Below, piece after piece: positions 49 to 11,077 of a stretch of 43,498 nucleotides of DNA (position 1 is its first letter; each line of letters starts with the position of its first letter). The notes beneath the pieces are model-generated. The model was not told the DNA's origin. It saw nothing but the letters and a program-made list of their open reading frames with translations, and did not search any database. Source of the DNA: Campylobacteraceae bacterium (GTDB taxonomy: Bacteria; Campylobacterota; Campylobacteria; Campylobacterales; JALSKU01); assembly GCA_026993075.1 (NCBI GenBank), contig JALWUQ010000065.1:1-43498 (forward strand), written 5' to 3'. The position numbers and the translations under genes were made by a program.

Positions 49-1866
49 ATGAAAAGAACAATCAAATTATTTAAAGAACATGGACTTTTAAGAGTTATAG
101 ATGACGAAGTTGATATAGATCTTGAGGTTGCACATATAGCCTATATAGAGACGAAAAAAGATGATTCAAAAGCTTTGCTTTTTACAAATGTAGTTTCCAA
201 AAGACTAAATAAAAAGTTTTCAATGCCTGTTTTGATGAATACTTTTTGTTCATATGAAGCTACAAATTTATTATTTGGCAAAGACCCTGATACCGTAGCT
301 TCGCAGATAGAAGAACTTTTGCATTTGAAACCTCCAGTGGGATTTTATGGAAAAATAGAAATGTTTTCAAAGCTTTTTGGGCTTAGAAAGATATTTCCCA
401 AGAGAGAATCTGAAAAAGGTGAGTGTCAAGAAGTAGAGTTTAAAGGCGAAAATATAGATCTATTTGATATACCGGTTTTAAAAACATGGTCTGAAGATGG
501 CGGTGCTTTTATAACTATGGGGCAAGTTTATACTCGCTCACTTGATGGGAAAAAACAAAACTTAGGTATGTACAGGCTTCAAGTATATGATAAAAATAGG
601 CTTGGTATGCATTGGCAAATACATAAAGACGGTGCTCACTTTTTTCATGAATATAAAAAAGCAGGTAAAAAAATGCCTGTTTCCATAGCCATAGGAGGCA
701 GTCCACTTTATATCTGGTGTGGGCAAGCACCTATGCCAAATGGCATGTTTGAACTTTTGCTGTATGGTCTTATAAAAGAAGAAAATCCAAGACTTGTCAA
801 ATCTTTGACAAATGATATATACATACCTAAAGATGTTGATATAGTCATAGAAGGTTTTGTAGATCCTTTAAAAAGTGAGATAGAGGGTCCTTTTGGAGAT
901 CATACCGGATATTATACTCTAAAAGAGTCATATCCTGTGATGGATGTAACTTGTATAACCCACAAGAAAGAACCGGTCTATCAAGCTACGGTTGTGGGCA
1001 AACCTCCGCTTGAAGATAAATATATGGGATGGGCTACTGAGAGGATATTTTTACCACTTTTAAAGACAACCGCACCTGATTTAATAGATTATAAGATGCC
1101 GGAAAATGGTGTATTTCACAATCTTATACTTGCTAAGATGAAAACAATGTACCCAGGACATGCAAAACAGTTTATGCATGCTTTTTGGGGAGTAGGGCAA
1201 ATGAGTTTCGTAAAACATGCTATCTTTGTAGGAGAAGATGCGCCTGAGCTTAGCAGTTATGATGAACTTAGCGATTATATACTTGATAGAGTCAGTGTCG
1301 AAAATATAATTATAAGTGAGGGTGTATGTGATGCTTTAGATCACTCTTCACCTGGAAGTTGTTATGGTGGAAAACTTGGAATTGATTGCACTGAAGACAA
1401 TGTAAATTATCCTAAAAAAGAGATCATAAGTGATAACGAACTGTATGATAAAATGAGCGGTATATCACCGGAAATTACCCAAATAAAACAATACAAAACA
1501 TATACGAAAACTCCTATCACTATCATAAAAGTTAAAAAATTACATCCTGTAAGGGAGGTTTATGAGAAACTTTTTAATTTGCAAAAATATACAAAATTAT
1601 TGATTTTTGTAGATGATGAAAAAAATGATATCGATAATATATATATGCTTGTCTGGAGAATTGTAAATAATATAGATGCAAAAAGAGATATTTTTTTAAA
1701 AAAAGAGTTTATAGGAATAGATGCTACAAATAAAAATGAAATAGATGGCTTCAAAAGAGAGTGGCCAGGCGATACAGAGTGTGATTTGAAGGTTATAAAT
1801 AATTTACAAAAAAGAAAAATAATCAATATTGATGAAGAATTTTTGAGAAAATTTTATATCGTGTAG
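49..1866 (+). CDS. ubiD: UbiD-family decarboxylase (menaquinone biosynthesis decarboxylase-like)
   Basis: 605-aa ORF; UbiD-like motifs (EGPFGDHTGYY, QATVVGKPPLEDKYMG). Confidence 0.88.
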   Translation: MKRTIKLFKEHGLLRVIDDEVDIDLEVAHIAYIETKKDDSKALLFTNVVSKRLNKKFSMPVLMNTFCSYEATNLLFGKDPDTVASQIEELLHLKPPVGFYGKIEMFSKLFGLRKIFPKRESEKGECQEVEFKGENIDLFDIPVLKTWSEDGGAFITMGQVYTRSLDGKKQNLGMYRLQVYDKNRLGMHWQIHKDGAHFFHEYKKAGKKMPVSIAIGGSPLYIWCGQAPMPNGMFELLLYGLIKEENPRLVKSLTNDIYIPKDVDIVIEGFVDPLKSEIEGPFGDHTGYYTLKESYPVMDVTCITHKKEPVYQATVVGKPPLEDKYMGWATERIFLPLLKTTAPDLIDYKMPENGVFHNLILAKMKTMYPGHAKQFMHAFWGVGQMSFVKHAIFVGEDAPELSSYDELSDYILDRVSVENIIISEGVCDALDHSSPGSCYGGKLGIDCTEDNVNYPKKEIISDNELYDKMSGISPEITQIKQYKTYTKTPITIIKVKKLHPVREVYEKLFNLQKYTKLLIFVDDEKNDIDNIYMLVWRIVNNIDAKRDIFLKKEFIGIDATNKNEIDGFKREWPGDTECDLKVINNLQKRKIINIDEEFLRKFYIV

Positions 1867-1876
1867 TGGTCTCTCT
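1852..1876 (+). repeat. solo end-like copy of the 11044-11077 arm, spanning the ubiD stop codon
   Basis: TTTATATcGTGTAGTGGTCTCT versus TTTATATtGTGTAGTGGTCTCT at 11051-11072. Confidence 0.6.
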
Positions 1877-10804: not shown

Positions 10805-11077
10805 TTTAAGAGACCATTACACAGTATAAATACCCATAAAAGTCTAGTTTTAGGTGAGATTTGTGATATAAATTTTGAAGGACTAACTAAAGTTAATTCA
10901 AAAAATTTATCTTACAAAGATTGCCTAAAAATAGACTTCCCTTTGGGTATCAACAGGTAGCTTATATACTTCGTTAAACTTCATTGACTTAAATACTTAA
11001 GCCTGCAGAAGTTTGCCTCGTCTATAAACTACCTGTTGATATTATGGATATTTATATTGTGTAGTGGTCTCTTTAAA
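10805..11077. repeat. nested inverted-repeat element (MITE-like or structured-RNA-like)
   Basis: outer arms 10805-10837 and 11044-11077 (about 90% complementary); internal arms 10841-10876/10900-10937 and 10949-10966/11023-11040; no convincing ORF. Confidence 0.75.

Follow-up and report, generated by a model that had tools for sequence, protein, structure and literature searches.

The stretch of DNA analysed here (the window, 43,498 nucleotides from a Campylobacteraceae bacterium) contains, upstream of atpB, a MITE, that is, a non-autonomous DNA transposon (Table 1). Comparison of copies sets its ends at GAGACC...GGTCTC and its length at 262 bp, and a 5-bp target duplication, TTTAA, lies on both sides. 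An initial annotation had described the locus as a nested triple inverted repeat of 273 bp. The nested arrangement holds: a repeat search in the window recovered all three arm pairs, and the sequence folds far beyond shuffled controls on either strand (z-score -14.8 for the plus strand and -13.0 for the minus strand, with 0 of 200 shuffles equally stable). The arms are real, but the outermost 5 bp or so on each side belong to the target duplication and not to the unit. Likewise, the two inner hairpins stand, but a conserved mini-hairpin, CCCTTTGGG, had been overlooked; it sits between hairpins A and B and makes the fold a four-way cloverleaf.

Table 1. Features of the element upstream of atpB and of a related remnant, in window positions.
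Feature	Position	Strand	Basis or remark
Outer arm pair	10805-10839/11042-11076		89% identity, repeat search
Hairpin A arm pair	10840-10876/10902-10938		81% identity, repeat search
Hairpin B arm pair	10948-10969/11020-11041		91% identity, repeat search
Left target-site duplication TTTAA	10805-10809		Same as 11072-11076; TTTAA occurs once at the empty site of G004 (L211)
Complete 262-bp MITE, GAGACC subfamily, hairpin A first	10810-11071	+	97% and 94% copies in the same genome; relatives with identical ends
Left TIR (5' arm of outer stem)	10810-10839	+	Repeat search, copy comparison
Hairpin A	10840-10938	+	Lower stem covaries; tandem G.A (GTGAGATTT / AAAGATTGCC); middle stem; tip conserved
Hairpin A tip motif AGGACTA...TAATTC	10879-10899	+	Kept in 32 non-redundant elements
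Mini-hairpin CCCTTTGGG, junction centre	10939-10947	+	Position constant among family members
Hairpin B	10948-11041	-	Lower stem covaries; internal loop CGTTA / GCCTCG; tip motif inverted
Hairpin B tip motif, AGGCTTAAGTATTTAAGTC on minus strand	10986-11004	-	Constant 86-nt spacing from tip A
Right TIR (3' arm of outer stem)	11042-11071	+	Repeat search, copy comparison
Right target-site duplication TTTAA	11072-11076		Matches left copy; empty site of G004
Decayed single TIR, GAGACC subfamily	1853-1873	-	Sequence matches to element end

The decayed terminal repeat (TIR) forms the 3' end of a ubiD-like gene (49-1866), with GTG TAG in GTGTAGTGGTCTC supplying its last codon and stop codon.

Copies and insertion sites

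The host genome holds four full copies: the window copy (C65), one on C11 (97%), one on C71 (94%), and a fourth, broken by a contig break, across the end of C74 and the start of C75. It also holds several single ends and end-to-end remnants of 22-60 bp. TIR-like matches occur at 23 places in this genome, against 2 for the reversed control. Host copies are flanked by the 5-bp duplications TTTAA/TTTAA, TTGAA/TTGAA and TTAAA/TTAAA; the flanks of the C11 copy, which lies about 5 nt behind a tRNA-Leu gene, differ (ACTAT/ATTAT). In the relative G004 the site upstream of atpB is empty, reading ...GATTTAAAGAACTATTAAATG... with one TTTAA. In G003 an element occupies the identical atpB site, inverted and shortened to about 170 bp. 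Because of this empty site and this inverted copy, the element is to be read as a MITE and not as part of a conserved atpB leader. Its TIRs, short length and absence of a transposase gene are those of a MITE, as are the target duplication, the unoccupied site in a relative and the multiple dispersed copies in one genome. The earlier proposal of a non-autonomous mobile element is borne out by the same copies, duplications, empty site and remnants, and by relatives across the order.

The ends also occur in several other arrangements. The G003 copy upstream of atpB (L209, G003:C224) combines the same insertion site with opposite orientation and an internal deletion, which suggests that the element inverted via its palindromic ends or that one target site was used twice. 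Elsewhere in G003 (L216, 377-2440 of G003:C280), a pair of GAGACC ends separated by about 2.06 kb surrounds half a MITE core together with DNA methyltransferase genes (MethyltransfD12, N6_N4_Mtase), possibly a composite mobile unit with a methylase. Tiny palindromes of 22-60 bp, in which two TIRs abut, occur at L018, L039, L052, L202, L225 and other loci, often in AT-rich near-palindromic sites, and their 5-bp flanks may differ at the central base. At L054 (G001:C64) a second TIR is stacked directly outside an element end, as if one copy had inserted at another's edge.

Position relative to genes

A folded RNA leader affecting atpB had also been raised at first. That reading finds no support, as the atpB gap of G004 lacks the element and the wobble bias described below favours no single transcript. 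Orthologous atpB loci do not conserve the element as they would a cis-regulatory leader, with G004 empty and the G003 copy inverted and shortened. The conserved 60 bp or so before atpB lie downstream of the insertion. Copies precede many different genes, adjoin tRNA-Leu and occupy divergent and convergent gaps; across 24 tandem, 14 divergent and 6 convergent contexts, no terminator-like positional preference relative to genes was seen. None of the 51 tested elements lay inside an ORF.

A structured core shared across Campylobacterota

Relatives in Campylobacterota are elements of 262-276 bp that share the cloverleaf, made up of an outer stem, hairpin A, the CCCTTTGGG mini-hairpin and hairpin B. 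Their arms share nearly no sequence with the window copy, yet they take the same folded shape. Of 200 genomes of the order, 24 contained the tip-motif pattern and none its reversed control. A scan of species-representative genomes returned at least 117 stretches with the tip motif; among the 80 matches listed, nearly all belong to Campylobacterota (Sulfurovum, Sulfurimonas, Sulfurospirillum, Nitratifractor and unclassified members), and about a third of the tip matches in the listed stretches sit at contig edges, as repeats would. At the tip matches in WOR-1 and "marine rock biofilm" the remaining structure is absent. Twelve tip matches in viral contigs lacked both a partner tip and an outer stem and were treated as chance, and plasmid and phage collections searched with the window copy gave no match. 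In Rfam 15, all matches to the window at the E-value threshold fell far below gathering, and eight relatives at the gathering threshold had no match. No description of the element was found in openly accessible papers. This MITE family is apparently widespread in Campylobacterota and undescribed as far as our searches reach; we regard it as a new family with an unusual conserved core. A single-hairpin variant of roughly 160-168 bp, with the same tip motif and unrelated ends, occurs at L064, L074, L085 and L108 (G026). In G015 (C31:4986-9802), GGGAACCTCTAAAAACC recurs seven times at exact 800-bp intervals, which is either a tandem array or an assembly artefact.

The family layout is near-constant. 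An outer stem formed by the TIRs (about 30-35 bp) encloses hairpin A, a CCC-loop-GGG mini-hairpin and hairpin B, with 85-87 nt between the two tips, about 67-75 nt between ends and tips, and a total of about 262-276 bp. In each hairpin a lower stem with covarying pairs leads through an internal loop to a middle stem, which ends in a bulged tip. The internal loop is a tandem G.A in hairpin A (GGGTAAGATTT against AAAGATTGCCC) and CGTTA against GCCTCG in hairpin B. The bulged tip, GMAGGACTA...TAATTCAA, is inverted in B relative to A. Column entropy averages about 1.6 bits over the outer stem and 0.6-0.7 bits over the tip and internal loop of A.

Covariation was measured on 32 non-redundant elements with a mean identity of 54%. 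Watson-Crick pairs fill 81% of cells; sliding the partner by 1-3 columns lowers this to 26-38%, and shuffling to 50%. At least two Watson-Crick types occur in 87 of 100 pairs, and all four in 35. By mutual information, the top 20 of 33,411 column pairs, and 45 of the top 50, fall within the structure. The compensatory changes for which a search had been proposed are thus present and very strong, which upholds selection on the fold, but they are no evidence that an RNA controls atpB. The mismatches (the tandem G.A, the tip bulges and the CGTTA/GCCT loop) are among the most conserved columns, while the paired columns vary. Within the family the inner hairpins have kept their shape while the terminal repeats have changed many times, and the core would be maintained by selection although the ends diverge.

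Subfamily ends and candidate transposases

Subfamilies end in GAGACC, GGGCAYCTCTAAAAACC, ATYACCGCACC, CCTGAGTTCGA, GTACCTGAAC, GACTTCTTGC and other sequences. Target duplications are 5 bp for the GAGACC subfamily and mostly 4 bp for GGGCAYC. IS5-family transposase elements (NF033581; DUF772 + DDE_Tnp_1) bear GGGCACCTCTAAAAACC or GAACCCTCTGAAWAAC ends, and for the GGGCAYC and GAACCCTCTGA subfamilies the same TIRs flank a transposase gene, as in IS5-family derivatives. Such TIR-matched elements (L358/L173, 1350 bp; L368; L355; L356) occur in the same order as the MITEs. They carry no convincing core tip motif, only chance-like matches with 1-2 mismatches. GAGACC ends flanking an IS5-family transposase gene were not found in the host or the relatives searched; G001, which has many GAGACC ends, gave no DDE_Tnp_1 match, and the complete genomes G011 and G151, with abundant GGGCAYC ends, have no DDE_Tnp_1 gene. 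The DDE_Tnp_1 match in G000 was rejected as a mover, being a 176-aa fragment without GAGACC ends.

Apparent strand preference of the two hairpins

Two of three substitutions between the outer arms had been noted as G-U compatible. This is correct for the window copy, but across the family the wobble bias of the outer stem is inconsistent (GT:AC 37:24 in one alignment and 16:24 in another). A first GT-versus-AC count over the fold, 259:85, was set aside because its pairs came from the plus-strand RNA fold and were biased. The recount took only pairs common to the folds of both strands, and each cluster at 70% identity was counted once. No net bias was left, and a flip between the hairpins appeared: GT:AC was 21:13 in A against 13:24 in B in alignment one (p 0.03), and 31:12 against 15:25 in alignment two (p 0.002), both clustered. 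The two alignments overlap, and the wobble evidence is moderate and varies with alignment and clustering. On the inward strands of A and B, the tip motif and the purine mismatches read alike. For each hairpin, selection seems to act on the strand that leads inward from the end next to it.

Discussion

We consider it likely that the atpB-upstream element is a trans-mobilised MITE with a selected core of subterminal hairpins, and that its insertion at atpB is most likely neutral, lying in front of the conserved promoter-proximal region that belongs to the gene itself. DDE transposases acting in trans, with the terminal repeats as the only part they read, would move it; at least for the GGGCAYCTCTAAAAACC and GAACCCTCTGA subfamilies, these would belong to the IS5 family. 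In the inner core, each end would have its own subterminal hairpin; the two hairpins would be equivalent, and each would fold on the strand whose 5' to 3' direction leads inward from that hairpin's end of the element. A putative protein may recognise the internal-loop mismatches and the bulged tip as single-stranded or cruciform DNA. More tentatively, the cloverleaf core could itself be the selected unit, combined with many terminal-repeat sets and transposases, its two hairpins recognised strand-specifically, in the form of folded single strands, by a factor of the host or one acting in trans that helps its spread or upkeep.

The main rival is a functional structured RNA, an sRNA or leader carried on a MITE, with selection acting on the RNA. 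The very strong covariation, conserved internal loops and very stable fold would suit such an RNA, and bacterial MITE transcripts elsewhere have been described as stable stem-loops (PMC10969869). Against it, Rfam holds no match, insertions are tandem, divergent and convergent with no fixed relation to genes, and G004 lacks the element upstream of atpB. The tips are inverted, and the opposite wobble bias of A and B would not arise from a single transcript. These two features disfavour a single functional RNA, which we judge unlikely, and favour single-strand recognition at both ends, in which the nucleic acid is probably DNA. Two opposite transcripts, one per strand, are possible instead of DNA recognition. 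We prefer a two-fold symmetric DNA element in which a folded single strand or cruciform arm would be exposed at each end.

Template switching can generate compensatory changes without selection. The elements could therefore be ordinary IS5-type MITEs, as their TIR matches to IS5-family elements would allow, with inner complementarity arising by quasi-palindrome correction and a core without function. We find this improbable. Template-switch repair should also erase the conserved mismatches, yet these persist uncorrected, in columns that are better conserved than most, and it is the paired columns that vary; arm lengths are also constant over elements averaging 54% identity.

Two inverted, imperfect hairpins with conserved mismatches recall REPINs and BIMEs, which are associated with RAYTs, and many genomes with the family do encode RAYT-like Y1 proteins. 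A reading of A and B as REP-like repeats that depend on a Y1 (RAYT) transposase for movement is nevertheless very unlikely. Y1 genes occur in 14 of 24 tip-positive and 78 of 176 tip-negative genomes (p 0.27) and are absent from G001, which has several copies; the tip motif was at none of 30 Y1 loci inspected, and the arrangement of a Y1 gene flanked by the repeats was not found. The family also lacks the GTAG foot and, unlike REPINs and BIMEs, is enclosed in TIRs and target duplications, which indicate a DDE enzyme, and has covarying stems at 262-276 bp. Mobilisation by PD-(D/E)XK (Rpn/YhgA-like) proteins, to which a Thiomargarita MITE has been linked in a proposal (PMC4853749), is the least credible reading, since among 18 searched genomes that bear the element or are related, only 1 had PDDEXK_2 above its cut-off; neither these nor Y1/RAYT proteins track the element across the genomes searched.

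The proposed trans-mobilised MITE with a selected core has several partial parallels. With IS5-derived bacterial MITEs the family shares non-coding content, TIRs, short AT-rich target duplications, intergenic location and presumed mobilisation in trans, and two of its TIR subfamilies match IS5-family elements (NF033581). It differs in that IS5-family insertion sequences lack the core, and in that the GAGACC subfamily has 5-bp duplications and no candidate enzyme among the genomes searched. QMITE2 of Coxiella, Correia and other foldable MITEs are likewise intergenic and fold over their whole length into a long, stable structure, but the stem-loops in the review PMC10969869 include no conserved multi-branched core across unrelated TIRs. 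AAV-type terminal hairpins also join an outer stem and two inner hairpins in a single fold; the analogy is one of shape only, as the present element is chromosomal, mobile and without a Rep protein. IS200/IS605 ends and integron attC sites act as folded single-stranded DNA whose unpaired bases are recognised strand-specifically. This is the kind of mechanism proposed here for the core, although the family differs from both in its target duplications, its symmetric hairpin pair and its lack of a link to a Y1 transposase or tyrosine integrase.

MITEs are usually regarded as deletion remnants with meaningless interiors, and typically they keep their TIRs while the interior drifts. The cloverleaf family reverses this pattern: the structure and loops of the interior are kept, and the ends, which are the enzyme recognition sites, change by subfamily. 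Interior hairpins that are conserved, covarying and strand-specific while the ends change indicate that the interior does work. The family thus offers a testable case of a non-autonomous element switching transposase, and its structure model can be used to annotate repeats that break many Campylobacterota assemblies.
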